From the NCBI GenBank assembly GCA_022844265.1, contig JALHMA010000008.1, positions 3,183-38,683 on the forward strand: a stretch of DNA of 35,501 nucleotides, in the 5' to 3' direction. A model generated the notes under the pieces. That model had not been told where the DNA came from. It did no database searches and saw nothing but the letters and a program-made list of their open reading frames with translations. The translations under genes were made by a program, and so were the position numbers. The stretch's first letter is position 1. The number at the start of each line of letters is the position of its first letter. Origin of the DNA: Saprospiraceae bacterium (GTDB lineage Bacteria > Bacteroidota > Bacteroidia > Chitinophagales > Saprospiraceae). This document shows, one piece after another, positions 444-24,574 of the stretch.

Positions 444-1769
444 ATGGTTTCGATTGAACAACTATATTCCATTTACCTCCGACATTCGGTAGTCAGCACG
501 GATACGCGCCAGTTACCGCAGGGCTGCATTTTTTTTGCCTTGAAAGGCGCCAGTTTTGACGGCAACCTGTTCGCTGCACAGGCGCTCGAAAATGGCGCGG
601 CATATTCCGTGATCGACGACCCGGCCAAACAAACAGACGAGCGCCTGCTGCTGGTACCGGATGTCTTGACGGCCCTGCAACAATTGGCTACACACCACCG
701 GATGCAATTTGATATTCCGGTGATCGCTATCGGTGGCTCGAATGGAAAAACGACGACTAAAGAACTGGTTTCCAGTATTTTAACAAGCCATTACCCCTGC
801 CATTTTACAAAAGGAAACCTGAATAACCATATTGGTGTGCCGCTCACCCTGCTATCCATGCCCGCAAATACGGAAGTAGCCGTCATTGAAATGGGAACCA
901 ACCAACCCGGCGATATCGAACAGTTGTGCGAAATAGCAAGGCCCACGCACGGACTGCTTACGAATATCGGAAAAGAACACCTGGAGGGTTTTGGCAGCCT
1001 GGCCGGGGTGAAAAAAGCCGAAGGCGAATTGTATCGCTACCTGGCGCGGCATTCGGGTTGTGTATTTCTCAATCTTGATGAAAAACACCTGCCTGCCATG
1101 GCGCAGCGCAATCAGCGCCGGATTGAATACCGGCAATCGGATATGCTAAACCCTAATGATGGCACTATCGAGGTGCAAATGCTGCAGGAAATGCCGTTTG
1201 TCGAGGTGGCTTTTCTTTCTGATGAGGGACCGACTGTGGAAGTGCGGACACATCTGTTCGGACGCCACAACTTCAACAATGTGATGACGGCCATCGTGCT
1301 GGGTATTTATTTTAAAGTGCCTGCTTCCAAAATAAAATCGGCCCTGGAATCCTATCGGCCTTCCAATAATCGCTCGCAAATAGTTCAATACGGCAGCAAT
1401 ACCGTGTTGTTGGATGCCTACAATGCCAATCCTTCCAGTATGCAACCGGCGCTGGAAAGCCTGCGGGCCATGCCTGCCGAACGGAAAGTGGCCATTCTGG
1501 GCGATATGCTGGAATTGGGCGCGGATAGTAAAAAAGAACACGAAGCCATCCTGCGTTTCGCCGCTCGTTTGCATTTGGATCAGCTGGTACTGGTGGGGCA
1601 GGAATTTGCTCAAACGCCCTACAAACGCTACCATGCCTTGCATTTTCCTGATAATTCGGCAGCAAAAACGTGGCTGGAGCAACAACACTTCCAGAACACG
1701 CTGATCCTGATTAAGGGTTCGCGGGGAATTAGGTTGGAGAAACTGATTGAAAGGGTTGATGGAGGTTGA
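444..1769 (+). CDS. murF: UDP-N-acetylmuramoyl-tripeptide--D-alanyl-D-alanine ligase (MurF)
   Basis: This is the cytoplasmic ATP-dependent Mur ligase that adds D-Ala-D-Ala to the UDP-MurNAc-tripeptide, the last soluble step of peptidoglycan precursor synthesis. At 441 aa it has the family's usual length. An N-terminal substrate-binding domain (STDTRQL and FFALKGASFDGN near 18-41) precedes the ATP-binding loop GSNGKTTTKE at 98-107. The ligase-core signatures NHIGVPLTLL, EMGTNQPGDI and TNIGKEHLEGFG follow, then LDAYNANPSSM and AILGDMLELG in the C-terminal domain. The ATG at 444 is the first in frame and places the uridine-binding domain at its usual position. The last codons (V-D-G-G-stop) lie inside a GGTTGAT repeat array, so the array supplies the stop codon. 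The downstream gene is convergent. Confidence 0.96.
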   Translation: MVSIEQLYSIYLRHSVVSTDTRQLPQGCIFFALKGASFDGNLFAAQALENGAAYSVIDDPAKQTDERLLLVPDVLTALQQLATHHRMQFDIPVIAIGGSNGKTTTKELVSSILTSHYPCHFTKGNLNNHIGVPLTLLSMPANTEVAVIEMGTNQPGDIEQLCEIARPTHGLLTNIGKEHLEGFGSLAGVKKAEGELYRYLARHSGCVFLNLDEKHLPAMAQRNQRRIEYRQSDMLNPNDGTIEVQMLQEMPFVEVAFLSDEGPTVEVRTHLFGRHNFNNVMTAIVLGIYFKVPASKIKSALESYRPSNNRSQIVQYGSNTVLLDAYNANPSSMQPALESLRAMPAERKVAILGDMLELGADSKKEHEAILRFAARLHLDQLVLVGQEFAQTPYKRYHALHFPDNSAAKTWLEQQHFQNTLILIKGSRGIRLEKLIERVDGG

Positions 1770-1979
1770 TAAGGTTGATGAGGTTGATGGAGGTTGATAA
1801 GGTTGATGAAGGTTGATATACATCCGCTCGAAAATGAAGCGATTTTACTTTTTTCGAGCGGATGTATATCAACCTTCATCAACCTTATCAACCTCCATCA
1901 ACCTCATCAACCTTATCAACCTCATCAACCTTATAAACCTCCATCAACCTCATCAACCTTATCAACCTCCATCAACCTA
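1754..1979. repeat. GGTTGAT-array inverted repeat with conserved core hairpin, copy 1
   Basis: The left arm (1754-1818) has GGTTGAT words spaced every 9-10 nt. The core stem CATCCGCTCGAAAA (1821-1834) pairs with TTTTCGAGCGGATG (to 1864) around an asymmetric loop containing GAAGCGATTTTAC. The right arm is complementary to the whole left arm for about 60 nt, then continues with an extra block of similar words, so it has been extended relative to the left. The element lies between the convergent murF and NlpC/P60 genes, overlaps the murF stop, and ends a few bases from the other stop. Two further copies of the core occur at 3141-3300 and 22623-22780. It could act as a bidirectional terminator, but there is no T-tract. 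Confidence 0.93.
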
Positions 1980-1984
1980 TAAAT

Positions 1985-2488
1985 CTACTTCGACACCACA
2001 TCCCGCGCAAACAGGATTTTAGGTTTCCAGTAATTGGAAGTACTTACATTTTCCACAATCACCCCGCGGCTGGTGGTGCTGTGTACACAAACAATCCCTG
2101 CTTTGGAACGTTTGACTACCATGGCAACGTGCGAAATCCGGTTTTTGCTCTCGCCAAAAAAGATCAGGTCGCCGGGTTGCGTCCGGTCGATCGCTACGGC
2201 CCGGCCTTCTTTGGCTTGTGCCGATGAAGCAGGAGAAATTTTTATTTTAAATTCTTTCATCACATAACTGGTGAATCCGGAGCAGTCGAATCCCGAAGGG
2301 CTGGTTCCCGCATATTTATATGTGGAGCCGACATATTTCTGTGCATAATCAGTGATGCGATTGCGCAACTGCACAGAACTGCCGGAGCTGCTTGCGGGAA
2401 TTGGTTTATTATTTTTTTTAGCCGGCGAACAGGCTACACTGATCAGTACTAGGGTAAAAAAAGCGGCAGAAAGCAGGCGTTGGCTCAT
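1985..2488 (-). CDS. NlpC/P60 family peptidoglycan endopeptidase, probable lipoprotein
   Basis: The product is a 167-aa NlpC/P60 cysteine peptidase, a family that cleaves bonds in peptidoglycan stem peptides at the cell envelope. The catalytic triad is visible: Cys69 in GFDCSGF, His120 in RISHVAMV and His136 in VCVHSTTS. The typical PGDLIFF strand lies between Cys and His. I start the gene at the ATG at 2488, not the upstream in-frame ATG at 2539. This start gives a clean signal sequence (MSQRLLSAAFFTLVLISVAC) ending at a cysteine, which suggests a lipoprotein, although Ser at -3 is not the classical lipobox residue. A serine-rich linker (about 30-38) follows. The gene is convergent with murF, and its 3' end touches the right arm of the repeat at 1754-1979. 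Confidence 0.9.
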   Translation of the reverse strand: MSQRLLSAAFFTLVLISVACSPAKKNNKPIPASSSGSSVQLRNRITDYAQKYVGSTYKYAGTSPSGFDCSGFTSYVMKEFKIKISPASSAQAKEGRAVAIDRTQPGDLIFFGESKNRISHVAMVVKRSKAGIVCVHSTTSRGVIVENVSTSNYWKPKILFARDVVSK

Positions 2489-2638
2489 TACAGACGGATT
2501 GATTTTTGATATACTACAAACCGCGAAACAACACTGCAACGCACATTATTACACCATTTTGTCATTTGTTTAACATTGGAAAAAGGTTTTGCTTAATGTT
2601 TCCTGTCTCCTAAAGTGGGACAAATCAACAGATAGCCA

Positions 2639-2646
2639 TACCTTTG
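2639..2646 (+). promoter_or_regulatory. Probable -7 promoter box (TAccTTTG) for the HAD phosphatase gene
   Basis: TACCTTTG matches the Bacteroidota -7 consensus TAnnTTTG and lies 28 bp before the ATG at 2674. No convincing TTTG is seen about 20 bp upstream, so the -33 half is weak. Confidence 0.55.
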
Positions 2647-2673
2647 CGTCCATTTCACACCAATTAAAAAGTC

Positions 2674-3108
2674 ATGCAAGAGCAAACCGAGCAGGCGTTA
2701 CAAGAAATTTTCAATGAAAAGGGCGAGCGACTCAGCCCTGTTCTACCCAAACACATCAAAAATTTTCTCATCGATATAGATGGTACCATCTGCGATGACG
2801 TGCCGAATGAAGAGCCGGAGCGTATGGGTACCATATTGCCTTATCCCGATGCGCTGGAAATGCTTAATCGCTGGCACGATGAAGGTCATGTGATCTTTTT
2901 CTTCACCAGCCGCACCGAAGCGCACCGTGAAATTACCGAATACTGGCTGGCTAAACACGGCTTTAAATACCATGGTATTTTGTTCGGCAAACCGCGCGGT
3001 GGCAACTATCACTGGATCGACAACCATATCGTCAAGGCGACCCGTTTCAAAGGAAAATTTACTGACTTAGTGGTAAAAACACACGAAATAGAAGTTTTTT
3101 CTGAGTAA
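2674..3108 (+). CDS. HAD-superfamily hydrolase (small phosphatase-like protein)
   Basis: This 144-aa cytoplasmic protein carries the HAD motif I sequence DIDGTICDD (Asp34 and Asp36). Motif II lies in the stretch FFFTSRTEAHRE, near residue 79. A Lys in GKPRGGNYHWIDNH and the acidic WIDNH near 110 probably fill the role of motifs III and IV. HAD enzymes use the first Asp as nucleophile on phosphate esters. Close relatives in Bacteroidota are stand-alone proteins of this size without a large cap domain; the substrate cannot be read from the sequence. The start is supported by a TAnnTTTG box 28 bp upstream. The next gene is separated by a hairpin repeat, so the gene is probably monocistronic. Confidence 0.8.
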   Translation: MQEQTEQALQEIFNEKGERLSPVLPKHIKNFLIDIDGTICDDVPNEEPERMGTILPYPDALEMLNRWHDEGHVIFFFTSRTEAHREITEYWLAKHGFKYHGILFGKPRGGNYHWIDNHIVKATRFKGKFTDLVVKTHEIEVFSE

Positions 3109-3140
3109 ATAAAACATCGTTCATGGTTTTGAACGTTATC

Positions 3141-3300
3141 TAAAGTGACTGTCCAAAAAAGTTGATGAAGGTTGATAAGGGTTGATGGGGGTTGATATAC
3201 ATTCGCTCGAAAAAAAGTAAAATCGCTTCATTTTCGAGCGAATGTATATCACCCCCCATCAACCCTTATCAACCTTCATCAGCTTTTTGGCCCACTTTCA
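3141..3300. repeat. GGTTGAT-array inverted repeat with conserved core, copy 2 (core inverted)
   Basis: The arms are GGTTGAT words (left about 3161-3196) and their complement (right to about 3281), with a near-perfect match. The pairing continues into the flanks (AAAGTG...CCAAAAA on the left, its complement on the right). The core stem is CATTCGCTCGAAAA with TTTTCGAGCGAATG. The loop, containing GTAAAATCGCTTC, is the exact reverse complement of the loop in copy 1, so the core sits in the opposite orientation. One C-G pair of copy 1 is T-A here, a compensated change. The element lies between two genes reading the same way. Confidence 0.93.
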
Positions 3301-3324
3301 TTACGATAACCGAATCAATAACTC

Positions 3325-4161
3325 ATGAACCTGCTACTCCCGCTGTACCTGTTGTTGTCGTCCGCTCCACCGGATACCCTGCCTTACAACCTGGCAAATC
3401 CTTCACACATCATCAACCTCGTCAGCGAAGACCTGCAAGAAATCTCGGGACTTAGTCCTGCAGATGCGCAAGGTCAATACCTCGCTATTGCCGATGAAAA
3501 GGGCGAAATCTTCTTTGTCGACGGCAGCGGTGGAGCTATTACCCGTCGTGTCCTGTTTCGGGACAAAGGTGATTTCGAGGGCGTCGAAATGGTCGGCCAA
3601 TGCCTGTATGCTGTCAAAAGCAACGGTGACATCTTCGAAATAGGCGACTGGAAACAGAAAAAGATGTGCGTCAACATGTACGAAACCCATCTTGACAAAG
3701 AAGATGATGTCGAGGGTTTAGGATATGACCTGAAACGCCATTGTTTATTGTTGGTCGGCAAAGGCAACGCCGACAGCAGTTATATCCGCGATGTTTATGC
3801 ATTTGATCTGACAACCAAACTGTTGGGCGAACAACCTGTTTATTCCGTCAATCCGCTGGAAGTCAATCGATTGTTACCACCCGGCCCGGATGAAAACAGC
3901 CATTTTTTCAGCCCTTCCAGTATCGCTATTCACCCGATCACAAGGGATGTGTATATCACTTCCACTGCTCAGAAACGCCTCCTTGTGCTGGATTACGACA
4001 GCGGCGCTATCAAATATGTTGTTCGCCTGGATAAAAAAATGCTGCCGCAACCGGAAGGTATTGCTTTTGACTCAAACGGCGATATGCTCTTAAGCAGCGA
4101 AGGGAAAAAAGGAGAAGGGCTGGTGATACGGTTTACGTACCGGGGGAAAGTGAATGAGTGA
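3325..4161 (+). CDS. SdiA-regulated-like beta-propeller protein, exported
   Basis: The 278-aa product begins with a short hydrophobic leader (MNLLLPLYLLLSSAPP), suggesting export to the periplasm or surface. The rest fits the SdiA-regulated/phytase-like beta-propeller family: EISGLSP, YLAIADEKGEIFFVD, DFEGVEMVG, LYAVKSNGDIFEI, DDVEGLGYD, SSIAIHP and PQPEGIAFDSNGDMLLSSEG recur as blade-like repeats with acidic turns. Such proteins are often predicted to bind Ca2+ or act on phosphorylated substrates, but no activity can be assigned here. The final codons (K-V-N-E-stop) run into a GTGAATA/GTGAGTA repeat array that provides the TGA. Start choice: this ATG opens directly into the hydrophobic leader; the in-frame region further upstream is repeat DNA. 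Confidence 0.78.
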   Translation: MNLLLPLYLLLSSAPPDTLPYNLANPSHIINLVSEDLQEISGLSPADAQGQYLAIADEKGEIFFVDGSGGAITRRVLFRDKGDFEGVEMVGQCLYAVKSNGDIFEIGDWKQKKMCVNMYETHLDKEDDVEGLGYDLKRHCLLLVGKGNADSSYIRDVYAFDLTTKLLGEQPVYSVNPLEVNRLLPPGPDENSHFFSPSSIAIHPITRDVYITSTAQKRLLVLDYDSGAIKYVVRLDKKMLPQPEGIAFDSNGDMLLSSEGKKGEGLVIRFTYRGKVNE

Positions 4162-4289
4162 ATAGTGAATAGTGAGTGGTGAGTTGTGAATCGTGAATCG
4201 TGAGTCGTGAGTATACAATCACTCACAGTAACCGGTCACCACTAACGACTCGCGATTCACCACTCACTATTCACTACTCACTATTCACA
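4150..4289. repeat. GTGAGTA-heptamer inverted repeat with shared core, copy 1
   Basis: The left arm has tandem GTGAATA/GTGAGTG/GTGAATC heptamers starting inside the end of the upstream gene. The right arm has complementary CACTCAC/TATTCAC heptamers to 4289. The middle contains GTGAGTATACAATCAC (from 4207), then CACAGT, ACCG, AACGACT and CGATTCACCACTCAC. The same middle occurs at 8425-8545, with small differences and about 9 extra bases here. The two copies follow unrelated genes. Confidence 0.92.
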
Positions 4290-4362
4290 ACTATTGCTAA
4301 TTATGGCATCGCATTGGTCGCGCGTTGTCATTTGAATGTGCGCTCTTGTAGAGTGGAGCGGT

Positions 4363-4370
4363 TACTTTTG
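4363..4370 (+). promoter_or_regulatory. Probable -7 promoter box (TActTTTG) for the type IX cargo gene
   Basis: TACTTTTG matches TAnnTTTG and lies 41 bp before the ATG at 4411. The in-frame ATG at 4336 lies upstream of this box and would not be on the transcript, which supports the start at 4411. Confidence 0.55.
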
Positions 4371-4410
4371 GGTGAAACAAATTCCAACTTTCACCTTCAA
4401 AATTTCCGCC

Positions 4411-6105: not shown

Positions 6106-6119
6106 TAAATACAAGTACG

Positions 6120-6210
6120 ATATTAATTGATATTGGGATATTGAGATATTGTCACTCAACTTATTGATTGTCAATAGAATATCCCAATATTTTAATATCT
6201 CAATAATTTT
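6120..6210. repeat. GATATTG-array inverted repeat
   Basis: The left arm (about 6121-6151) has GATATTG words at 8-9 nt spacing. After about 20 nt, the right arm (about 6171-6208) has the complementary CAATA/ATATC words in imperfect register. It lies just after the type IX cargo gene. The remaining gap to comEC (6211-6332) is AT-rich, and I see no further gene or clear promoter in it. Confidence 0.75.
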
Positions 6211-6332
6211 GCCTTATACTTATATACCAATTTATTTTGAAATAAAGGATTGGGGTTTATATTTGCAAGGTATCCGACACATGCAAATGGCCGGATAACA
6301 AACACTGCTTCATATAATCAACATTTTTTCGA

Positions 6333-8435
6333 ATGAATCACCGGTACACCCCCTACCTGCGCTTCATCGTGCCCTTTTTGTTGGGTCTGGCCGTCGCCGG
6401 TCAGATAGATGAACCTGTTCCCAATGCGGGACCAATCCTGCTGTTCGGCACTTTCCTGGCTGTTGTTCTGGCCATCCGAAAAATTCCTTACCGGTATCGC
6501 TGGGTTTTTGGTGCATACCTGCATTTACTGCTCTTTTTTGCGGGCTATTATCACTGCACAGCGCACAACGAACTGCGCCGCCCGGGCCATTTTTCGGAAA
6601 AAATAACAGAGGAAGCGCAGTATGTCATTGGCACAGTGTACCAGGCGCCGTCGCATGGAACAAAGTTGAAAGTCCCTTTGCGGGTGGAAGCCATCGGAGC
6701 ATCGCCGGATTCTATGGAAACCTGCGTTGGCAATCTTCTGCTCTTTCTCGATATTTCACCCGATACGGATAGTATTCGGTACGGCGACCGGCTGGGAATT
6801 TATGCATCGGTACGTCCTTGTGAGCCGCCCAAAAACCCTTATGCGTTTGATTACCGGCGGTATTTGCATTTTCAAAATATTCATTACCAGGCATTTGTAA
6901 AGACAGAATCCCTGACTTTACTTTCCCGCAACCACGGAAATGCCCTCTGGCGGGCCGCATATAACAGCCGCGACCGCCTGCTGGCATTGCTGCGCAAACA
7001 TTTTCCCACGCAGGATGAATACGCGGTCGCATCGGCTTTGCTGGTGGGTTATACGGATGACTTGTCGGAAGATTTGCTGCTGGCTTATAAAGAAACCGGT
7101 TCCATGCACGCGCTGGCGGTGTCAGGCACACATATCGGCATGTTGTATGTCGGGTTAATGTTTCTCCTGGCGCGTTTTCGTTTCAAGGGGCGCTGGCGCT
7201 TGTTGGAAACGATCCTGATTTTGCTGGCTATCTGGGGTTTTACTTTTTTGACCGGGGCTACCGCTTCTGTGCTTCGGGCCTCCGTCATGTTCAGCACCTA
7301 CCTGCTGGGGAAAGCCTTCCGACGCGATGCCTCCGCCTGGAATGTACTACCCGCTTCAGCCTTCGGATTACTGTTGTACAATCCCTATTTTCTGTTTGAT
7401 GTCGGTTTCCAGTTATCGTATGCGGCCGTGGCGGGCATGGTGTTTTTTTATGCGCGGTTTTACAAAATGTTTCCACCCTTACCGCGCTGGGCCGATGAAT
7501 GCCTGAAAGTTTTGCTGGTCGGCATGGCGGCACAATTGGGCACGCTGCCCCTTTGTTTGTATTATTTCAACCAGTTTCCGGTGTATTTCTGGCTTTCCGG
7601 CTGGATCGTGGTACTCGGCGGCGCTATTTTTCTTTGGGGCGGCGCGATGCTGGTCATCCTTGATTTTGTTTTTCCCATGCTGGCCGACTGGCTTGGAACG
7701 GCCCTGTTTTATATGCTCTGGGGCATGAATAAAATCATCTTTTTTATCCAGTTGCTGCCAGGCAGCGTCATTGCCAATATATGGATTGCCGGTTGGGTAG
7801 CGGCTGTGCTGTATGCCTGCATTGCCCTGCTGGGCAGCCTGATCGTGTACCGGAAAGCACGATATCTGATGGGATTAATGGCAATACTGACTTTACTGGG
7901 TATTTATCGCATCACGACCCTTTCCGCAAAAAGCCGCCAACAGAAAATAGTGGTGTACCACCTGAATAAACAAAGTCTGATCGACTTCTGGGATGGTGGA
8001 AAAGTCTTTAGTTTATCTGACACCCTTTCACCCCGAAAGGAAATGTTCGCCGCTCAGGCGAACAGGGTCACTGGAGCAATGATCCAAAAAACCACTTTGT
8101 ATTTTTCTGCTGACACTTCTTTTTTACAAGATAACTTATTGATTGACTGGCCTTTTATTCAGTTTTTTGATAAAAAAATGATTCTCCTGGATCACGCACC
8201 GCCTGTTCTCCCGGCCGGTAATACGCAGATGAAGGCTGATGTCCTGCTTTTATGCAAAAATCCGAAAGTGACTATTGCCGAATGCCGGAAACGCTTCTCT
8301 TTCCAATGGCTGGTTTTCGACGCTTCCAACAGCCAATGGCAGACGGAGCGCTGGCGACAGGAATGTGAAAACGCGGGCTGGACCTACCACGACGTGCGCA
8401 GTCAGGGCGCCTGGGTGTGGACGCTGAGTGAGTAG
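6333..8435 (+). CDS. comEC: ComEC/Rec2-family DNA uptake channel protein
   Basis: ComEC forms the inner-membrane channel that brings single-stranded DNA into the cytoplasm during natural transformation. The 700-aa product has hydrophobic segments at the start and an N-terminal soluble domain (about 70-200). The Competence domain follows, with the hallmark ALAVSGTHIGMLY near residue 265, FLTGATASVLRA and RRDASAWNVLP, and the DVGFQLSYAAVAG segment, then several more membrane helices. I see no HxHxDH motif in the C-terminal 180 residues, so the metallo-beta-lactamase domain found in many long ComEC proteins is absent or unrecognisable. The stop (TAG at 8433-8435) falls inside a GTGAGTA repeat array. 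The next gene encodes helix-hairpin-helix repeats, as in ComEA, which supports a role in DNA uptake. Confidence 0.93.
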   Translation: MNHRYTPYLRFIVPFLLGLAVAGQIDEPVPNAGPILLFGTFLAVVLAIRKIPYRYRWVFGAYLHLLLFFAGYYHCTAHNELRRPGHFSEKITEEAQYVIGTVYQAPSHGTKLKVPLRVEAIGASPDSMETCVGNLLLFLDISPDTDSIRYGDRLGIYASVRPCEPPKNPYAFDYRRYLHFQNIHYQAFVKTESLTLLSRNHGNALWRAAYNSRDRLLALLRKHFPTQDEYAVASALLVGYTDDLSEDLLLAYKETGSMHALAVSGTHIGMLYVGLMFLLARFRFKGRWRLLETILILLAIWGFTFLTGATASVLRASVMFSTYLLGKAFRRDASAWNVLPASAFGLLLYNPYFLFDVGFQLSYAAVAGMVFFYARFYKMFPPLPRWADECLKVLLVGMAAQLGTLPLCLYYFNQFPVYFWLSGWIVVLGGAIFLWGGAMLVILDFVFPMLADWLGTALFYMLWGMNKIIFFIQLLPGSVIANIWIAGWVAAVLYACIALLGSLIVYRKARYLMGLMAILTLLGIYRITTLSAKSRQQKIVVYHLNKQSLIDFWDGGKVFSLSDTLSPRKEMFAAQANRVTGAMIQKTTLYFSADTSFLQDNLLIDWPFIQFFDKKMILLDHAPPVLPAGNTQMKADVLLLCKNPKVTIAECRKRFSFQWLVFDASNSQWQTERWRQECENAGWTYHDVRSQGAWVWTLSE

Positions 8436-8545
8436 TGAGTGGTGAGTAGTGAGTATACAATCACCCACAGTGACCGTAACGACTCACGATTCACCACTCA
8501 CTACTCACCACTCACTACTCACGATTCACCACTCACTACTCACAT
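8425..8545. repeat. GTGAGTA-heptamer inverted repeat with shared core, copy 2
   Basis: The left arm starts inside the last codons of comEC (GTGAGTAGTGAGTGG-type heptamers). The core GTGAGTATACAATCAC, then CACAGT, GACCG, AACGACTCACGATTCACC matches that of 4150-4289. The right arm of CACTCAC/TACTCAC heptamers ends about 2 bp before the next ATG at 8547. The right arm carries no stop codons in that frame, so an open frame runs back through it to 8439. Confidence 0.93.
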
Positions 8546-8546
8546 C

Positions 8547-9665: not shown

Positions 9666-9797
9666 AGGCTGTTTTGGAACTTGTTTTTTGAAAAGTTCCG
9701 TAAATAGTTCACCTTTACATTTCTATTTCACCCAATTCCGTTTTTATTTTTTAATGAAACGGCATGTTCACTTACATTTTCACCTCATTCAGTTACC

Positions 9798-10175
9798 ATG
9801 AATCTCTTTGTTGCAAAATTAAATTTCGACACACAGGAAGACGATCTGCGCTCCGCATTTGAACAGTTCGGCGAAGTGTCATCCTGTTCTGTCATCACCG
9901 ATAAGTTTACAAATCGTTCCAAAGGTTTTGCTTTTGTCGAAATGCCGAACGACGACGAGGCACAGGCTGCTATCGACGCGCTCAACGAAACAGACTTTGA
10001 CGGACGTACCATCGTTGTAAAAAAAGCGGAACCTCGCGAAAGCCGTCCACCACGCGATAATCGCGGCGGCGGTGGTGGTTACGGCGGCGGCGGCAATCGC
10101 GGTGGCGGCGGTGGTTATGGCGGCGGCGGCGGTAATCGCGGCGGCGGCTATGGCGGCGGCGGCAATCGTTACTAA
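9798..10175 (+). CDS. RNA-binding protein: one RRM plus glycine-rich tail
   Basis: This 125-aa protein has one RNA recognition motif, with RNP2 at 3-8 (LFVAKL) and RNP1 at 42-49 (KGFAFVEM), followed by a glycine/asparagine/arginine-rich tail from about 83 to the end (repeated GGGGYGGGG and GNRGG units). The layout matches the short glycine-rich RNA-binding proteins of cyanobacteria and Bacteroidota, which bind single-stranded RNA and are often cold- or stress-responsive; regulation here is not visible. The tail is encoded by GGCGGCGG-type triplet repeats, so its length may vary between strains. The 132-bp gap before it shows no repeat array. A hairpin repeat follows within about 25 bp of the stop. 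Confidence 0.93.
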   Translation: MNLFVAKLNFDTQEDDLRSAFEQFGEVSSCSVITDKFTNRSKGFAFVEMPNDDEAQAAIDALNETDFDGRTIVVKKAEPRESRPPRDNRGGGGGYGGGGNRGGGGGYGGGGGNRGGGYGGGGNRY

Positions 10176-10198
10176 ATAGCGGCGTAACTGGCGCCCTA

Positions 10199-10296
10199 TA
10201 CTTGTACATTGTTAATTGAGCATTGTACATTGTACATTTTTAATTAATACGTCAAAAATGTACAATGCTCAATGTTCAATTAACAATGTTCAAGTA
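10199..10296. repeat. CATTGTA-heptamer inverted repeat
   Basis: The left arm (10199-10241) has ACTTGTACATTG, TTAATTGAG and CATTGTA words. The right arm (from about 10254) starts AAAAATGTACAATG and ends with AACAATGTTCAAGT. The arms pair over nearly their whole length around an AT-rich loop with AATTAATACGTC. It lies between two genes reading the same way, and its right arm ends 15 bp before the next ATG. Confidence 0.88.
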
Positions 10297-10310
10297 TTAA
10301 GTATCAACCT

Positions 10311-11096: not shown

Positions 11097-11098
11097 AA

Positions 11099-11229
11099 AG
11101 GGATGAGGGATGAGGGATGAGGAACGAGGAACGAGGGATGACCGAGCGTGATGTCGGACATCACGCTCGGTCATCCCTCATCCCTCATCCCTCATTCCTG
11201 ATCCCTCATCCCTCATCCCTCATCCCTCT
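11099..11229. repeat. GGGATGA-heptamer inverted repeat between convergent genes
   Basis: The left arm is tandem GGGATGA with some GGAACGA variants. The core stem ACCGAGCGTGATGT pairs perfectly with ACATCACGCTCGGT around CGG (about 11140-11170). The right arm is tandem TCATCCC running up to the sprA stop codon at 11228-11230. The element occupies the whole gap between the TspO-like gene and sprA. Its strong GC core hairpin could stop transcription from both sides; there is no T-tract. Confidence 0.93.
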
Positions 11230-17200: not shown

Positions 17201-18970
17201 TTTCTGTCCTTTACCTGGATCTTCGTAGAAAATATCAAACCGGAATTCGTTAGGATCTACATTGGCCGTACCTACCGCGTATACGTTTTTCATCATCAGG
17301 TCCCAGATAGGGTACTGGATATTGGCTGTGGTACTTTTCAGCATTTTTACAAACAACACATTGGTATTCAGGGTGTCCTGGCTACTGGTGCGCGGAATAT
17401 CGCTGGAGAATTCCCCGATTTTATGCGGGATACCATTATAGGTGTATTCGACGGCCACCCCGATCACCTGGTCGGGCTGTACGTTCAGGTTGATACTCAC
17501 AAAACCGAGTTGTTCATTGTACGTATATTCAGAAGGAGAGAGCAAACGACCGCTCATTTTTTCAAAATCCTTGATCTGCGTGAGGCCCAGGTTGGTCAGG
17601 CGGCGCACCACTTTATCATTGTAACGGCCTGTAGGATCATCGCTCAGTCCATCTGTCAGTTCCGCGTATAAACTGTTGTTGTTATTATCAGGCAGCGGCC
17701 GGTTTTTGATGTCCAAAGCAGGTGGTGCGCCCAACAGCCAGGTCGAGTCAATTTTGATCGGTTCGCCCAGGTCGGTGATAGCAACGATGTCGCGAAACTG
17801 CTCGGTAGCCAGTTTGTCATTGGTGAGCCAGACCTCCATCCGGGTGATCGTGAAAAGCGATTGCGGGACGGGCAGGCACATCATGGCCGGCTCAAATTCG
17901 TCGCGGTTCCAGTGGCTGAGGAAGAAGTGGCGGTTTTCGTCGTATTCGTCGATGGGTTTTTCAAACGTTTGAATCTGAGATCCGCCCTGCACCGTTAGGC
18001 TTTGCTGCCTGGAGCGCTGCTGGCTGGCTATTAAAGTGGTGCGCAGGTGACCGAATTTTAATTCCGTTTTGATACCGAACAGGTTTTGCGCGCCTTTGAT
18101 CAATTGAGAGCGCAGCGGCATGGACACGTTGCCCGCTTCCACATTTTGTACAATTTCGTCTTCTGAAAAACCTTTCGTATCGTAGTTCAATTTCATCTGG
18201 TTATCGAAATCGAACGTAGCCTGGGTGTTGTAGTTGAAATTGAGGTTCAGTTTTTCCCCGATTTTGCCGGCAGCACTCATATTGATGTCCATATCAAAAT
18301 CGAAGTTGCCGTTGCGCTGCTGGCGAAGGGTCAGGATCGGGTTTTGAATTTTCTGGTAATCAAATCCAAAAGTGAGGTTGATATTACCCTGCGGTTTGAT
18401 GTTGACTTCCGTGCCGCCGAAAAGGCGATCGATCAGCGAATTTTTTATATCAAACTTGGCAATCGGATCGACGATGCCACTGCTGCTTTTCTGGTCGGAC
18501 GACACCACGCCCTGCAAGCGGTCAAAATATTCATTTTGCTGCTTCTGATCGCGCCAGCGCACATATTCGTCAAAAGTCATATAAGTCGGCGCCCGGTAGA
18601 AATCATCACCCACCTTCTCTGTGATGATATACATATTTGTTTCCGGGTCGTATTCAACCTGCTGCTCGACGGCTTTGGGGTCTTTCAGGTCGATCGGATT
18701 GTCGCCGCCGGAATGAATAAAATCATCATACCGGTCCCGCAAAGGCGGGAGCGTATCGGGCGCGGCAACCAGTTCGGCAGCTACTATATCTTCCGCATCA
18801 TCCGTTATTTCATCGGCGGAATGGTCGGTTGCAACTGGCAAGGTTCTGTCCGGGAAAAAAATCGTCAGAAAGTTATTGCGCACACGTTCCGGATGAGAGA
18901 AGGCGTACAGGGCGCAAACCGAAAACAGGCATATAGCCCCAAGAAGGAAGTTCCTCTTCGTCATTTTCAA
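11228..18970 (-). CDS. sprA: Type IX secretion outer-membrane translocon protein SprA (Sov)
   Basis: This 2580-aa protein is the very large beta-barrel through which folded proteins with C-terminal sorting domains cross the outer membrane of Bacteroidota. Size, signal-anchor-like N-terminus (NFLLGAICLFSVCALYAFS) and family stretches all fit: YDPETNMYIITEKVGDDFYR and PTYMTFDEYVRWRDQK near 110-145, repeated LNFNYNTQ/KLNYDTKGF barrel strands, GGDKGGTVYLDDFEGS near 890, and a final strand VTVQFQLN. Two lysine-rich stretches interrupt the C-terminal third, near residues 1970-2097 and 2457-2500. They are rich in K, S, G and E and look disordered. Start: ATG at 18970 or the second Met at 18964; both give the same leader. 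The gene appears monocistronic, with repeat-filled gaps on both sides. Two cargo genes (4411 and 25725) lie in this window. Confidence 0.95.
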   Translation of the reverse strand: MKMTKRNFLLGAICLFSVCALYAFSHPERVRNNFLTIFFPDRTLPVATDHSADEITDDAEDIVAAELVAAPDTLPPLRDRYDDFIHSGGDNPIDLKDPKAVEQQVEYDPETNMYIITEKVGDDFYRAPTYMTFDEYVRWRDQKQQNEYFDRLQGVVSSDQKSSSGIVDPIAKFDIKNSLIDRLFGGTEVNIKPQGNINLTFGFDYQKIQNPILTLRQQRNGNFDFDMDINMSAAGKIGEKLNLNFNYNTQATFDFDNQMKLNYDTKGFSEDEIVQNVEAGNVSMPLRSQLIKGAQNLFGIKTELKFGHLRTTLIASQQRSRQQSLTVQGGSQIQTFEKPIDEYDENRHFFLSHWNRDEFEPAMMCLPVPQSLFTITRMEVWLTNDKLATEQFRDIVAITDLGEPIKIDSTWLLGAPPALDIKNRPLPDNNNNSLYAELTDGLSDDPTGRYNDKVVRRLTNLGLTQIKDFEKMSGRLLSPSEYTYNEQLGFVSINLNVQPDQVIGVAVEYTYNGIPHKIGEFSSDIPRTSSQDTLNTNVLFVKMLKSTTANIQYPIWDLMMKNVYAVGTANVDPNEFRFDIFYEDPGKGQKRFLGGEGSPDIPASIRSRPLLQLFGLDNLNLQSDPGPDGIFDFVPGLTINLRSGRIMFPVLEPFGSYLADTLAGAGAPQPVVDKYAYRQLYDLTPFLAREFQQFNRFVLKGSYKSSTSSDISLGTFNLPQGSVRVTAGGQLLREGVDYQIDYNIGKVRILNDAILQSGQNVNVSFEDNTLFGFQSRTMLGARFDYELSKDINIGATYMNLFERPLTQKVNFGDDPINNKMYGLDFSISKDAPWLTKMVDKIPFIDTKEPSSISAQAEVAFLQPGHNKAINQGGDKGGTVYLDDFEGSTANLPLSNPANSWVIASVPQGDLTEFPEGSDTTLALGANRAGLSWYIADPSARDAIDGTNPYTTQIQFQDIFPNRQLTPLEQSALRPLDVTIYPRSRGPYNFDLPDGYPGLSAGLTQSGELDQPATRWAGFMRGLNTNDFEAANIEFVEFWMLNPYMDKGDDPDVSDDGNMFIDLGTISEDIMRDSRQYFENTLPTGPGTGATAATPWGRVPVQTPVVNAFDNDPEKRAFQDVGLDGLNNEQELEYFGAYVNAIMASSISPNAKAEIMADVSNDDFVFFRDDRFNGVNPGLLTRYRKFNNQEGNSPVNNTDNLNPSATNLPDMEDLDRNNSLNENEAYYRYKINFKSVNRPVILNGPPVRALDLESPELRDLITDTVIFQRNGEYYVWYRFKLPLDYTQRQQIGGIQDFRSMRFVRMLWKGFTEQTTFRFATLELGRNQWRRFKQPLPQIDTPTGTVCDVGFSPIPFDINAVSIEENSARTPFNYTIPFGIQREQSVGAFPDILQNEQSLSMSVCSLGYCDARAVFKSLNLDLRQYKNLKMFVHAEQLDENNFPFDSTDLSVFLRLGSDYVNNYYEYEIPLHPSTIQGLAGNQNPDSRSYKEEVWKIQNSFDFPLELLTDVKKQRNASGNTDLIFVMPDPNNPRNKVKVVGNPNLGYVKGVMVGVRNIDEQKQQHCVEVWLNELRLNGFNEQGGYAGLARVDMKLADFGNVSMAGNYTSIGWGSIEQKLIQRQREEVMQVDVSTNLELGKFLPEKSGVKVPFYAQYSNITRNPEYDPYDLDIKLKDKINDETDPVKKEEIRTLAQDVTVVRGYNFTNVRKERKGGSRKIPLPWNIENFSLTYAFNQQKRRTPFLINDQQNRYKGALDWQYATGMKPITPFKKLIKNDKYLKFISEFNFNPLPNTYGFNTNLERLAGVTTYRFSGEDPSLNTYYNRRFTWDRNYDLGWDISKSLRFNYDATARSLIDEPLEYNPDGSRVTKAERRDSILANMRNLGRPKNYNHTASLNWTLPFKVIPMMDWISMKASYTAGYTWSAQSLKLQNLDAGQYAEFTNSRSLGNVIQNNNTRQINGDLNFESLYNKSKYLQKINKPSKKGSKSSPATGGPGKSTIPGGISPDEETSGGKAAGGRNNKRSGKDAKDLPSDSKDVTEKNSRNSDRKSAEGVKPVIGPDGKPIEGVAEEAGGKEDKNSKKGDKKAEKGKNKKDREPSMAERIALRPLMLIRKGRFTYSENFNTVIPGFTPDTKLMGLSEGFNAPGWAFVAGIQPGSDWLDEAGRNGWITHRPELNQQVTRNYTQNIDAGLTIEPFQDFRIELTANKQYSRNGTELFKDQDFNLDPTATQFEHRAQRDIGSYTVSYFAMNTLFGNDINGLFDRYEQYRQTISQRLGVESGATDPHESDQGYARGYGKIQQQVLVPAFIAAYSDADPNTVGLDIFKTRPAINWKLNYNGLSKVGNLSKVFASVQISHGYKSTLTVNSYNTDIFYDPSNPYTIDPLNANYIARYEIPQIVITEQLQPLLGVDIKLKNEMTFKTDFKKSRTLAMSFIDYRLAETQSESYTVGFGYRIKDVKIGFLMGKKAKKSSSKSKKKPATDAASGAKPPAGGAGQQSNDLNIKFDFEVRDDITINHQLDQLVEAIPTRGARTIAINPSVEYALNRRLKLRFFTDYRKTVPKTSQSFPITTLSSGVTVQFQLN

Positions 18971-19210
18971 AAAAGCAGGTGGATTTGTCTATTCTATTAC
19001 TCTTACAAACGGCTGGAATGACGCACGTCTGCCCGAATAGGTTGCCTGAAACGGCATAATGTAGCAGGGATTGTGTGAATAGGGATTTATGAGGCCGGAA
19101 AAGGGTGGATGCGTTGGATGGTTTGATGGTTGGAAGGGTTTGATGGTTTGAGGTGGTAACGTAAAGCCAAGAGTTACCACCTCAAACCATCAAACCATCT
19201 CAAACCATCT
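18971..19210. repeat. GGTTTGATG-array inverted repeat in the sprA-tolC gap
   Basis: The repeat itself spans about 19115-19210. The left arm has GGTTTGATG-type words at 8-9 nt spacing. The core GAGGTGGTAAC (19150-19160) pairs with GTTACCACCTC (19173-19183). The right arm CAAACCATC words reach the stop codon of the tolC-like gene at 19211. The remainder (18971-19114) is the sprA upstream region; I see no TAnnTTTG box there. Confidence 0.85.
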
Positions 19211-20563
19211 TCATTTTTCCTTCAATTCCTCCAGTTTCCCCGTTGTTTTCAGCAGTTTTAAAACCGCCAGTTTATAGGTAAAAACCTGTTGCCAGTAGTT
19301 GGTTTCTGCTTCGGAAAGGGCTGTTTGTGCATTGAGCAGGTCGGTGAGCGGCACAACACCTTCTCTATACTGAAGCATCAGTTTGTCGCTGATTTCCCTG
19401 GCCAGACCGACATTATCCGTTTGGGTGCGCAGGGAGCGCAAGGCATTTTGAAGTTGTTCGCGGGCCTGCCTGAATTCCAGGCCTTTGGCGCTGTTCAGTT
19501 GCCGGCGGTCTTCGGCCAGTTTTTGGCCTTCAATGGCCAGGAAACTCGATTTATGCAAACGCCGAAAGCCGTCAAAAATCGGAATCTGCATTTTTAAACC
19601 AAAAGCGACGGCTCCATACCAGCGTCTGTCGAGGTCGAAAAAATTAGCGTTGGGGCGGAACGCTTGAGTTAAGGCGCTTGCATGCGCACTAAAATTGGGC
19701 AGGTTTTCGGCCCGCAGGCTGCTCAGTTGAATGCGGTTGAGTTCTACCTGGTGCAGCAACAGGCGGAATTCGGTGGTTGTTTCCGGTTCCAGCGCCAGCA
19801 CTTGCCAACGCGCAGAGTCGGCAGCCGGCGCCGACATTTCTTCCATCGGATCGAATGCTTCTTCAAAAGGAACGCCACAGAGGAATTGCAGGGTCTGGCG
19901 CAGGCCGCTGATGGCTGTGTACAAATTCTGGCGCTGTGTTTCGAGGTTTGTACGGGCTACTTTGATCCGTTTTACATCCGTTGGAATAGCGTATCCATTG
20001 GCCAATTGTAATTCTGCCATACGTTGCAGGGCGTCCAATTTATCGAGGTTGGCGTTCATGGCACGCAGCAACTGCTCCGTTTGCAGGGTCTGGTAAAAAA
20101 CCGTGGCAGTCGTGAAAACCACCTCTTCCTCCGAACGGGTAATCAGAAGATCGTAGATGTTTCTGGTAACATTGGCTGCGGGGGCAGCCCTGCGCATCGA
20201 CTCATTAAAAAGTTGTTGTTGCACCTGGATGGAGCCGGTCAGTTGCCAGGGCTGACCAAATTGTACCGGCAGGAAGGTGTTGTCTGCCATGCCAAACAGT
20301 TGGCCCGGAATGAGTTGTGTCGGCAGCACAGGCAGGTAATCCATTCCAAATCCCATACTGATCTGGGGGAACGCAGCGCTGCGTCCTTCCTGTATACGTT
20401 TGTCTATGCCCTGCCGGTCGAGGCGGGCTTTCTGCAATTGCGCACTGTTTTCGAGCGCGAGGTGCAGGCTTTCACTCAGTGTGATCGGGCGGAATGTGGC
20501 AGGCTGAGCGTATATTTTCCCGATAAAAACGCTCCATAGCAGGATACGGAATAAACATTTCAT
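19211..20563 (-). CDS. TolC-family outer membrane efflux protein
   Basis: The 450-aa product has a signal peptide (MKCLFRILLWSVFIGKIYAQ) and the TolC/OEP architecture. Two long alpha-helical repeats contain LSESLHLALENSAQLQKARLD near 29-50 and, at the C-terminal side, EGVVPLTDLLNAQTALSEAET near 405. TolC proteins trimerise into a channel spanning the outer membrane and periplasm and work with an inner-membrane pump and an adaptor. Neither partner gene is next to it, so substrate and partner are unknown. A NTF2-like gene ends 37 bp upstream in the same direction, and the two may be co-transcribed. A TAATTTTG sequence immediately before the ATG also resembles a -7 box. A shorter start is unlikely because the signal peptide begins at this Met. 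Confidence 0.9.
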   Translation of the reverse strand: MKCLFRILLWSVFIGKIYAQPATFRPITLSESLHLALENSAQLQKARLDRQGIDKRIQEGRSAAFPQISMGFGMDYLPVLPTQLIPGQLFGMADNTFLPVQFGQPWQLTGSIQVQQQLFNESMRRAAPAANVTRNIYDLLITRSEEEVVFTTATVFYQTLQTEQLLRAMNANLDKLDALQRMAELQLANGYAIPTDVKRIKVARTNLETQRQNLYTAISGLRQTLQFLCGVPFEEAFDPMEEMSAPAADSARWQVLALEPETTTEFRLLLHQVELNRIQLSSLRAENLPNFSAHASALTQAFRPNANFFDLDRRWYGAVAFGLKMQIPIFDGFRRLHKSSFLAIEGQKLAEDRRQLNSAKGLEFRQAREQLQNALRSLRTQTDNVGLAREISDKLMLQYREGVVPLTDLLNAQTALSEAETNYWQQVFTYKLAVLKLLKTTGKLEELKEK

Positions 20564-20567
20564 CCTG

Positions 20568-20575
20568 CAAAATTA
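20568..20575 (-). promoter_or_regulatory. Possible -7 box (TAatTTTG) abutting the tolC-like start
   Basis: Read on the minus strand, TAATTTTG ends about 4 nt before the ATG at 20563. If it works as a promoter the transcript would be almost leaderless. It may be chance; no clear -33 TTTG is present. Confidence 0.3.
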
Positions 20576-20600
20576 GCGCACCTGCATCACTTCTGACGTT

Positions 20601-21065
20601 TTACTTGCAAGCTTTTCGGCGCGTATCGAGGATGTACTGGATTTTCCAGCCCTCATCCATTTTCACCAACTGAAAAGAATTGGTGCCGCAATGCGATATT
20701 TTGCCGTTGAGGTAAAACTTGTATGGCGTCCAGACACTTGCCAGCGACGGCTCGCTCAGCACGGCGTCGAATTCAATTTGTTCTTTGTATTTGTCCTTGG
20801 TAGGCGTTCCGACGAATGTGACAAACTCATTAAAATCTTCGGTAAAAACCTGCCATTTGCCATCCCGGTCTGCCATGTAGGTTTGCATAACCGGCGCACT
20901 GGTGCAGGTGCTTTTCAACAATGCCGTATCACCTTTTTCCAGTCCTTCAAAAAACTGGTTGATCACGGCTTTAATGGCTTTTTCACTTTTTTCTTCTTTC
21001 TGGGCCATCAGCGGCAACACGAGGCAAACAGACAGAACAAGTAAGGGGAATCGAACGTTTTTCAT
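20601..21065 (-). CDS. Exported NTF2-like (lumazine-binding-like) protein
   Basis: This 154-aa protein has a signal peptide (FPLLVLSVCLVLPLMAQ) followed by a single NTF2-like domain. Features include an N-terminal helix pair AIKAVINQFFEGLEKGDTALL, then TWTxY-like strands with SVWTPYKFYLNGKISHCGTN, SFQLVKMDEGWKIQYILDTRR and a C-terminal basic end. Exported NTF2-like proteins of this kind (often called nuclear transport factor 2 or lumazine-binding family) are common in Bacteroidota. The fold makes a small pocket, but the ligand cannot be inferred. It precedes the TolC-family gene by 37 bp in the same direction. Confidence 0.78.
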   Translation of the reverse strand: MKNVRFPLLVLSVCLVLPLMAQKEEKSEKAIKAVINQFFEGLEKGDTALLKSTCTSAPVMQTYMADRDGKWQVFTEDFNEFVTFVGTPTKDKYKEQIEFDAVLSEPSLASVWTPYKFYLNGKISHCGTNSFQLVKMDEGWKIQYILDTRRKACK

Positions 21066-21386
21066 AAAAAAGGATTTGTACAGAAAAGTTTGAAATAAAA
21101 TAAGTGGCCAAAAATCGAAGTTCGCCCCGACCTCGCAGGCAAAAATAGCCGGAAAGCCGCTCTCGCTCTGTATTCAACCGCTTTAGGGCAGGTTATAACA
21201 AAGCCCTATCTTGCGCCCGTTTTGGGTCTTCATTTAATGTTTACCACATAGATACATAGCAAAAACATAGATCACATAGCCGGTTTTGATTGCCTTTTAA
21301 CATCTGTGAACTATGCAGCAAATAGGTGCAAACAAATCATAATTAAGTATTCAACCAAAATTAGTTTTGGCTAAATTCATTACAAA
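21066..21386. other. Gene-free gap holding a half array of CATAG words
   Basis: About 320 bp with no supported gene. At 21241-21280 there are unpaired words TTACCACATAGATACATAG and AACATAGATCACATAG. They match the left arm of the inverted repeat at 34783-34881 but lack a complementary arm here. The rest is upstream sequence of the NTF2-like gene, without a clear promoter box. Confidence 0.6.
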
Positions 21387-21427
21387 TGCTTGATTATCAA
21401 CACGGATAACTAATAACTGATAACTAC
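21387..21427 (+). repeat. AACNNAT-heptamer array, upstream flank of thioredoxin
   Basis: It begins TGCTTGATTATCAACAC and continues as AAC-T-A-AT/AAC-T-G-AT heptamers, ending at the base before the thioredoxin ATG. An inverted copy follows the gene at 21731-21780. Direct or inverted copies also lie at 24575-24622 and 35318-35368. Confidence 0.88.
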
Positions 21428-21727
21428 ATGACATCTTCCTTTGATCAGATCATCCAGTCTGACGTACCTGTGCTCATTGATTTTTGGGCGACCTGGTGCG
21501 GCCCCTGCCTCGCTATGACTCCTATACTGGATGAATTAAAGGCCGAATTGGGAGATCGTGTGCAGATTGTGAAAATTGATGTGGACGAGCATACAGACCT
21601 GGCCGTGCAGATGAAAGTGATGGGCGTTCCTACTTTTATGCTGTATAAAAGCGGGCAGTTATTGTGGAGCGAAGCGGGGACACAAACCAAAACAGCATTG
21701 AAAAAAATAATTGAAAGTGCTGATTAG
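21428..21727 (+). CDS. Thioredoxin
   Basis: This 99-aa cytoplasmic thioredoxin reduces protein disulfides. The active site is W-C-G-P-C at 23-27, the cis-proline follows VMGV (Pro68), and the buried acidic and lysine positions (DFWATW, VKIDVDEH) fit the family. At 99 residues it is slightly shorter than E. coli TrxA (about 108). The gene is odd in its setting: its ATG directly abuts a heptamer repeat, and an inverted copy of the same repeat starts three bases after its TAG stop. Thus the gene is bracketed by inverted copies of one dispersed repeat. No ribosome-binding site is visible. Confidence 0.95.
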   Translation: MTSSFDQIIQSDVPVLIDFWATWCGPCLAMTPILDELKAELGDRVQIVKIDVDEHTDLAVQMKVMGVPTFMLYKSGQLLWSEAGTQTKTALKKIIESAD

Positions 21728-21835
21728 TAAGTAGTTATCCGTTATTAGTTATTGGTTATCAGTGTTGATAATCAAGTATTTGTGAAAAATTTAATCTAAA
21801 CCGACTTTAAACACGTACTCAATTTTAACAAAACA
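21728..21835 (-). repeat. Inverted copy of the AACNNAT array, downstream flank of thioredoxin
   Basis: The repeat is 21731-21780 (read on the minus strand: TACTTGATTATCAACACTGA, then AACCAAT, AACTAAT, AACGGAT heptamers). Similarity to the upstream flank extends a little further, into AAATTTTTCACAAATA here versus AAATTCATTACAAATG there. The rest of the gap to 21835 is AT-rich and may hold the promoter of the next gene. Confidence 0.87.
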
Positions 21836-22615
21836 GTGAAATACGAGATGTATATATTTTTTTGGGCCATCAGCCTTTTTTTTCAGGCTTGCCAGGGTGC
21901 CGACCAATCATCGGAAGCCAGCGGTGTGCCGCTCAGCACCGCTACGCCTGCAACAAGCACAGCAGCCATGCCCGCACCCGATGCAGGCAGCGATTACCTG
22001 CTGGGCAAGTTTGATCCGGCTACACACCCCGACTTTGTAAAAGTTGGCAAACCTTATACGGACCGGACGGGTATGACGCTGCGAAAAGAAAGTTTTGAAG
22101 CATTTAAAAAAATGTGGGCAGCGGCCCAAAAGGATAAAATTGTACTGAAAATCATTTCTTCCACGCGCAGTTTCGGGCAACAAAAAAATATCTGGGAAGC
22201 CAAATGGGAACGTTTTGCCAAAGACGCGCCGCTGCCCAAAGACCGCGCCCTCAAAATTCTTGAATTTTCTTCCATGCCCGGCTCCTCGCGCCACCACTGG
22301 GGCAGCGACATTGATTTGAACGACCTGAACAATCCCGCTTTTGAAAGCGGCGGAAAATACCAGAAGGTATATGCCTGGCTCAATGAACACGCACACGAAT
22401 ACGGATTCTGCCAACCCTACACGGCAGGCCGCCCGAATGGCTACCACGAAGAAAAATGGCATTGGTCATATACACCCCTGAGTAAACCTTTGCTGGATGA
22501 ATATCAAAAAAACATCACAGAAAGCGACATCAAGGGGTTTAAAGGCGCCGAACTTGCCGCCGAAATCGGCATCATACAGCACTATGTGGGCGGGATTAAT
22601 CAACAGTGTAAATGA
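21836..22615 (+). CDS. VanY-like D-alanyl-D-alanine carboxypeptidase (peptidase M15), probable lipoprotein
   Basis: Peptidase M15 enzymes are zinc enzymes that trim D-Ala from peptidoglycan stem peptides in the periplasm. The zinc motif SRHHWGSDID (near 157-166, matching SxHxxGxxxD) and the later EKWHWSY with the third ligand are both visible, together with STRSFGQQKNIW near 109. The N-terminus is hydrophobic and ends at FFQAC, suggesting lipid attachment, followed by a Ser/Thr/Ala-rich linker. The frame starts at GTG 21836; an ATG at 21848 (MYIFFWAIS) is equally reasonable and would give 255 aa. A GGTTGAT-family hairpin follows the stop closely. Confidence 0.88.
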   Translation: MKYEMYIFFWAISLFFQACQGADQSSEASGVPLSTATPATSTAAMPAPDAGSDYLLGKFDPATHPDFVKVGKPYTDRTGMTLRKESFEAFKKMWAAAQKDKIVLKIISSTRSFGQQKNIWEAKWERFAKDAPLPKDRALKILEFSSMPGSSRHHWGSDIDLNDLNNPAFESGGKYQKVYAWLNEHAHEYGFCQPYTAGRPNGYHEEKWHWSYTPLSKPLLDEYQKNITESDIKGFKGAELAAEIGIIQHYVGGINQQCK

Positions 22616-22622
22616 ATGATAT

Positions 22623-22780
22623 TTATGGGTTTATGAAGGTTTATAAGGGTTGATGAAGGTTGATGTACATCCGCTCGAAATGAGTAAAATCGTTTCATTT
22701 TCGAGCGGATGTACATCAACCTTCATCAACCCTTATAAACCTTCATAAACCCATATAAACCCTAGTCAACCCTTATCAAC
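22623..22780. repeat. GGTTGAT-array inverted repeat with conserved core, copy 3
   Basis: The left arm mixes GGTTTAT and GGTTGAT words. The core stem CATCCGCTCGAAA pairs with TTTCGAGCGGATG. The loop with GTAAAATCGTTTC is in the same orientation as copy 2 (3141-3300) and opposite to copy 1. The right arm pairs perfectly with the left for about 50 bp and then extends further with CATATAAACC and CAACCCTTATCAAC, ending 6 bp before the next ATG. Confidence 0.92.
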
Positions 22781-24534: not shown

Positions 24535-24574
24535 AGAAAAGGGCAGAATTACAAAGGGCAAAAAGCAGTGTAAA

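Follow-up and report, generated by a model that had tools for sequence, protein, structure and literature searches.

Word-array hairpins at gene ends of a Saprospiraceae bacterium suggest mutual copying of the two hairpin arms and spread of the central loop round the genome

How can hairpins scattered through a genome share a central loop and still each have arms of their own? The question is raised by a 35,501-nucleotide stretch of a Saprospiraceae bacterium (GenBank assembly GCA_022844265.1, contig JALHMA010000008.1, positions 3,183 to 38,683), hereafter the window, whose coordinates are contig coordinates minus 3182. An earlier inspection of its letters without database searches, the sequence-only reading, had noticed that three intergenic gaps carry the same non-palindromic loop inside a short stem, inverted in one of them, and that outside this core each copy has its own arm of GGTTGAT words. 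It took the inversion as a sign of movement or copying, and a base pair changed on both arms as a sign of either selection on the hairpin or correction of one arm by the other.

The three copies are present at the places claimed, and their cores were located and the letters rechecked (Table 1). The core stem is CGCTCGAAA...TTTCGAGCG in all three, and the change from CATCCG/CGGATG to CATTCG/CGAATG is indeed found on both arms. The loop of copy 1 is nearly the reverse complement of that of copy 2, and the word 'exact' fails on an extra T in the T run of copy 2; copy 3 has the loop orientation of copy 2, with a few base changes. Counted outward from the core, the arms run for 48-63 nt with 0-2 mismatches, and the folding z-scores against shuffles are -24, -21 and -20 for copies 1, 2 and 3. 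A scan of the genome (6.05 Mb, 561 contigs) for the exact core pattern gives 11 places, and one for a reversed control pattern gives 0. Together, the folding scores and the pattern count exclude a chance origin of the window hairpins. In Rfam, at the gathering score, the sole match in the window is a tRNA at 28147-28217, and its word-array hairpins are unmatched.

A covariance model was built from 11 copies with 23 pairs. Its 10 distinct rows contain 5 pairs changed on both sides, 0 changed on one side and 2 unpaired cells, while controls with slid partners gave 0-1 pairs with two-sided changes. The search proposed by the sequence-only reading, of the whole genome and its relatives, returned many copies in both orientations, mostly at gene 3' ends. 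The genome itself holds at least 91 distinct places (E up to 0.0145; one match partial), a lower bound from the best 150 candidates with the strands merged by hand, so that neither a set of three copies nor a single local duplication describes the family. Eight of 60 genomes, the source genome included, are matched by the model. Counted per strand, matches in four sister genomes number at least 88 (G015), 72 (G034), 24 (G027) and 19 (G030), and these four are also the closest to the source species in one conserved gene (94-97% identity; next 89-91%). Fewer matches occur in G033 (5), G009 (1) and G020 (1), the single ones in the last two being hairpins of other words and not the main family. 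In a class-wide sample of 295 genomes, with the best 17 candidates scored in each, the source genome was the sole match and the other 294 gave none. Pattern hits in records of Prevotellaceae, Anaerolineae, Chloroflexi and Pseudomonas (L085, L091, L095, L116) had no adjoining hairpin and were rejected. In the stretches fetched, word arrays of any family reach 13.8 per 100 kb in G034 (80 kb), 10 in G027 (40 kb), 20 in G015 (20 kb) and 14 in the source genome (100 kb; three of the five stretches were already known to hold a copy), against 0-10 per 100 kb for eleven further congeners, sampled at 20-40 kb each, and none for seven genomes of the same order (148 kb). The GTTGAT family is thus one of several word-array families dense in a single small clade.

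Members are non-coding, dispersed in both orientations and have a median length of 130 bp. Outermost in each are arrays of GGTTGAT or GGTTTAT words, 9-10 nt long with their purines; inside these come a conserved, short stem, the core, and a non-palindromic loop of about 20 nt. Four of the 91 copies have no readable word chain and were left out of the arm analyses, leaving 87, in which four words per arm is the commonest state (left 51/87, right 48/87, both 35). The 5' arms are poor in C (mean 3.8% across 188 distinct word-array hairpins, 118 of them of the GTTGAT family; others 1% to 23%). That each copy has its own word arm holds well beyond the window: there are 84 distinct left arms among the 87 copies. 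Further, the left arm equals the copy's own right arm across 38 nt in 11 of 87, where re-pairing arms at random predicts 0.03. A 21-nt loop string, AATGAAGCGATTTTACTTTTT, is common to 12 of the 87 copies, whose arms differ from one another; within these 12, a copy's own two arms are fully identical in five, matched over the shorter arm in two and one difference apart in two.

Copies sit at gene ends. With genes called by our own gene caller trained on the window, the 91 copies fall into 58 tandem, 20 convergent and 9 divergent gaps, 3 lie at an edge and 1 falls within a gene call. The remaining gaps of these loci number 65 tandem, 6 convergent and 12 divergent, so that convergent gaps are in excess (20/87 element gaps against 6/83 other gaps, p=0.005). 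As in an extragenic family, 87 of the 91 places lie between two called genes. Leaving out the three edge copies and the one inside a gene, the median distance from element edge to gene is 3.5 bp for 3' ends (n=98) and 55 bp for 5' ends (n=76). A stop codon lies within 15 nt in 64 of 91 copies, and 18 of 98 gene ends reach at least 5 nt into the word region. The family has the feature of an intrinsic terminator that places a hairpin just after the stop codon, and the elements probably terminate transcripts. The words also carry stop codons: in 181 arms of all families there are 5.04 stops per 40 nt on the incoming strand, 3.07 after shuffling and 1.03 on the outgoing strand, and in 68 arms of other families 3.29 against 2.18 shuffled. 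This enrichment is suggestive only, because many arms are related. In tandem gaps, the loop has the direction of the gene in 35 cases and runs against it in 23 (p=0.15), so that no orientation bias was shown.

Occupancy of the sites is lineage-specific. Fifty-seven sites of the source genome were compared with orthologous gene ends in relatives (65 of 73 anchors queried; a single G030 locus, L325, counted for two sites), giving 102 site-by-genome pairs. A classifier assigned 48 of these to no hairpin, 15 to a plain hairpin, 28 to other words and 11 to words of the same type; the sister genome thus lacks any word array in 63 of 102 comparisons. Applied to the 91 known elements, the classifier labelled 75 as same-family words, 14 as plain hairpins and 2 as none, so it undercounts. 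Other words found at the same gene ends in sisters include GTGTTTTA, GTGAGAG, GGCAAGG, GTTATTA, GAGTCCT and GTTGTTGAG. Beyond the sequence-only reading, then, the clade has many families of hairpin, of which these word arrays are one, and a given gene end can carry a different family in a sister species. Reuse of preferred sites by other families was considered and dropped, as 28/102 is no clear excess over the background of other-word hairpins at gene ends of the source genome without GTTGAT words (21/105). Movement or copying is supported by the sites gained in particular lineages and by the many copies in both orientations.

What keeps the arms matched? Of 2070 stem cells in 90 copies (one of 91 dropped by length), 186 carry Watson-Crick changes on both sides, 69 are G-T, 72 A-C and 110 other mismatches; covariation thus extends far beyond the single pair first noticed. 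In the 58 tandem copies read in transcript direction, the core has 41 G-U against 51 A-C, and with the arms included the counts are 76 G-U and 77 A-C. Selection on RNA predicts an excess of G-U, and none is seen; DNA is thus the likelier level at which pairing is restored or selected, and RNA-level selection was rejected as the source of the paired changes. Between the two options of the sequence-only reading, these counts favour correction of one arm by the other in DNA over selection on RNA, while the same G-U comparison is compatible with selection on a DNA hairpin. One report describes template switching between inverted repeats as a process that homogenises arms and inverts spacers (PMC8604942); it would cover both the paired change and the inversion of the loop. 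At one site (C341), the loops of the source genome and G030 are opposite in direction, but they come from different subfamilies. Maintenance of the arms by template switching is the best-supported inference. SbcD and XseA are nucleases that cleave palindromes or suppress template switching. Among 42 congeners, SbcD is above the cut-off in 5, none of them one of the five clade members, and XseA is found in 40, including all five; loss of a nuclease as the cause of expansion was set aside, because failing the SbcD cut-off is the rule across the genus and neither gene discriminates.

The edges of the elements were considered separately. Pairing between the outer flanks reaches a score of 8 or more in 7 of 87 copies, where 300 re-pairings gave a mean of 0.39 and a maximum of 3; C7 falls under the threshold, and window copy 2 is outside the 87. 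In three of the seven (C26:25278, C357, C119; C265 is weak), the outer stem is a recurrent TGTCTCAAAA-type motif, which leaves unique outer stems in C243, C365 and C72. The idea that the element always lies within the loop of an older terminator was rejected, since three of these seven outer stems may be the element's own end. Of the 87 copies, 15 have a loose GTYTYA motif no more than 22 nt beyond the words, and 4 of these 15 show TGTCTCAAAA exactly. Away from the element, the source genome has no exact TGTCTCAAAA hairpin with a loop of up to 30 nt, so the outer stem may belong to the element. In L033, L162, L185 and L199, TGTCTCAAAA stands at the outer edges of GTTGAT elements, a possible element end or remnant transposon end.

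That the hairpins are dispersed, lie at gene ends, change in pairs and occupy sites in a lineage-specific manner is shown; what joins these facts is our reading, with a probability of about 0.5, that these are dispersed non-coding, terminator-like palindromes whose sites are gained via a carrier and whose arms are re-matched, and loops perhaps flipped, by template switching. A new copy would arrive as a whole unit by way of the carrier. Polymerase template switching within the hairpin would then copy one arm onto the other, so that word changes appear on both sides, and the loop could be flipped by the same switching or by insertion in either direction. On the transcript, the element would fold into a very long terminator-like hairpin, and the stop codons carried by the words from either side may make lodging on a stop codon harmless.

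Several observations weigh against this reading. The pairs adjoining the loop are the worst matched of the stem. Mean arm identity is just 0.76 within copies (0.63 between them), so many copies have decayed. Among the 12 loop-sharing copies, three (C7, C29, C102) show clear differences between their own arms, and the 38-nt scripted comparison was feasible in just four (difference 0.105 within copies and 0.186 between them, on average). Evidence of a U-tract is modest: A makes up 44-68% at positions three to five beyond the words, but the linkers are A/G-rich too. No target-site duplication was found; empty sites exist, with flanks too diverged to fix the edges. All evidence of gain comes from comparison between species, with no between-strain event among it. 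Lastly, no carrier was found in a search covering Y1 families, in which DDE transposases were not searched.

The alternative that survives best, possible though in our judgement unlikely, is a conventional non-autonomous transposon (MITE- or REPIN-like) served by a transposase in trans, with the words as subterminal repeats and TGTCTCAAAA as a terminal-repeat remnant. Identical loops at many sites, lineage-specific sites, the edge motif and its lack of an element-free hairpin are consistent with it. With such transposons the family shares its non-coding, dispersed state and inverted ends; it differs in that neither a parent insertion sequence nor a target duplication came to light. However, arms are not common between copies, no parent element emerged from the Y1-family search just described, and Y1 genes do not track the element. 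A REP-associated Y1-like transposase, which the sequence-only reading had named as a find that would support mobility, is not supported: 34 of 42 congeners have Y1 genes, whether or not they have the element, and among 22 Y1 loci read, with 12 readable Y1-type frames, seven had hairpins within 300 bp and none of those listed was a word array. Two Y1 genes of the source genome are flanked by a different hairpin and the third is cut by a contig end; in G009, a Y1-type gene and a word hairpin share a contig but are about 1.5 kb apart and so do not adjoin. As a separate repeat, a GCGCCCTTTCAGGGCT / AGCCCTGAAAGGGC hairpin stands near the IS200-type Y1 genes of L005 and L006 (C123 and C3 of the source genome), and RAYT-like genes of congeners (L364, L366, L370, L371) have REP-like hairpins of their own, e.g. 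TCGCCAACTGAAAGTTGGCGTTACT and CCCCGGAACTCCGTTCCGGGG.

Doubtful, and somewhat more so than the transposon, is the proposal that the word-array palindromes are self-templating replicators, needing no transposase of their own to spread. Intermolecular template switching, through words that two sites have in common, would bring one arm and the loop to another gene end, and fold-back copying would then supply the other arm, which would explain identical loops with rewritten, self-matching arms, the mixing of cores and words, and nested hairpins. Ordinary terminator hairpins whose pairing is kept by selection on RNA are improbable: gene-end placement, convergent enrichment, very stable folding and A/T-rich edges would suit them, but the G-U excess is missing in transcript direction, and identical non-palindromic loops at unlinked sites require copying. 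We give similarly little credence to cores that spread by gene conversion among pre-existing word hairpins, without insertion at new sites. Some cores do occur with more than one word type (3 of 6 core types, in small numbers): GTAGAGTRCRCC with GAGTCCT in 9 and GTGAGAG in 6 plus-strand readings, GGTGGTAA with GTTGAG words in 3 and GGTTTGATG words in 1, and CCGAGCGYGATG with two word types once each. The first core-by-word counts took arm readings from both strands, so that an element might count twice, and were redone on one strand. Also, site C7 has the same words with different cores in two sister species. Against gene conversion, the 48 comparisons with a hairpin-free sister indicate that sites are gained as well. 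An assembly or binning artefact of short-read metagenome bins can be virtually dismissed: every genome with many copies is such a bin, yet flanks are unique, gene neighbours orthologous, and the elements recur in four separately assembled sister bins, one of about 50 contigs.

Within the window, the convergent neighbours of copy 1 are a MurF-type ligase gene, which ends at 1769 within the words, and an NlpC/P60 gene, which ends at 1985. At the site of copy 2, the sisters G015, G027 and G034 have no word array and keep the flanking GTTATC/GATAA letters. The stem of copy 3 spans 22624-22755, with extra words on the right side up to 22780. Hairpins of other words are also present (Table 1). The first contains, at 315-435, a direct repeat of 53 nt in a GTGTTT-type hairpin region; its two units are 87% alike and lie 68 bp apart. 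A thioredoxin-like gene (21428-21727) is flanked, within 21357-21808, by inverted stretches of GTTATTA-type words that are 81% complementary and 316 bp apart, with similar stretches again at 24544-24621 and 35291-35371. At 24347-24524, an inverted repeat of 39 bp that has no words (TGTGACCTATGGCCCGTAGGGTCAATATC...) encloses 100 bp of spacer. Elsewhere, a locus of G034 (L319, C35) shows nesting at three levels, the loop of a GTTGAT element holding a GGTAACTATACCCATTTGCACC palindrome whose own loop holds a AAACCTATAAGG palindrome.

Table 1. Hairpin features of the window, in window coordinates
Feature	Position	Strand	Remark
Other-family hairpin	266..435	.	GTGTTTGG-type words, GCGCTTCGCC core
Copy 1, word-array hairpin	1754..1979	.	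fills gap between two convergent genes
Copy 1, core and loop	1825..1860	+	ATGAAGCGATTTTAC orientation on +
Copy 2, outer flanks, imperfect pairing	3135..3310	.	GTTATC...GATAAC, AAAGTG...CACTTT
Copy 2, word-array hairpin	3156..3288	.	gap between HAD-type and SdiA-regulated-type genes, both +
Copy 2, core and loop	3204..3240	-	orientation opposite to copy 1
Other-family hairpin	4158..4288	.	GTGAATA/GTGAGTG words; begins at gene's stop
Hairpin	8428..8522	.	GTGAGTA/GTGAGTG words; overlaps gene 3' end
Hairpin	10198..10297	.	TACATTG-type words
Hairpin	11099..11213	.	AGGGATG words, core CCGAGCGTGATGT; convergent gene ends either side
Hairpin	19137..19196	.	GGTTTGATG words, GGTGGTAAC core
Copy 3, word-array hairpin	22624..22780	.	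gap between VanY-type and AhpC/TSA-type genes, both +
Copy 3, core and loop	22672..22707	-	orientation as copy 2

If our reading is right, these palindromes form an evolving population within the genome, with pairing enforced by copying and not by selection on RNA. This would advise caution in taking covariation as proof of RNA structure. In addition, the clade would offer a natural system in which to measure template switching, and gene ends would turn over fast between related species.

Judged by title and opening of the abstract, no paper in the open full-text literature, which leaves most subscription journals outside, described hairpins with a core and word arrays from Saprospiraceae or Bacteroidota. 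Cyanobacterial STRR sequences, with a 7-nt unit, and small dispersed repeats are short words repeated in tandem in intergenic DNA. The elements here are alike in their intergenic tandem words, and other families here have words of about 7 nt; in contrast, main-family words are 9-10 nt and form two complementary arms around a core, in a different phylum. REP, BIME and REPIN sequences are short, dispersed extragenic palindromes, often 3' of genes, with complementary stem changes (PMC3733652, PMC2817692). Together with RAYT, they resemble the present family in the many dispersed extragenic palindromes, gene-downstream sites and paired stem changes, whereas our elements are far longer, have word-array arms, no GTRG core foot and no associated Y1 found. 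Membership of REP/RAYT was rejected on the missing GTRG foot and the lack of a cognate RAYT flanked by word arrays: none of 174 readings has GTRG at the foot of the core, 10 of 174 ends show GTAG or GTGG at their outer edge, and the CGTC tag of CGTC-tagged REP stands at 0 of 174 outer ends. For Bacteroidetes TnpA-Y1 subclass 2.6, 'atypical secondary structures' and hairpins copied elsewhere in the genome are reported (PMC6006769); phylum and genome-copied hairpins agree, but the readable hairpins beside Y1 genes here differ, as far as a comparison by description goes. Quasipalindrome template switching (PMC8604942) is alike in arm homogenisation and spacer inversion, and is a mutation process rather than a dispersed family.

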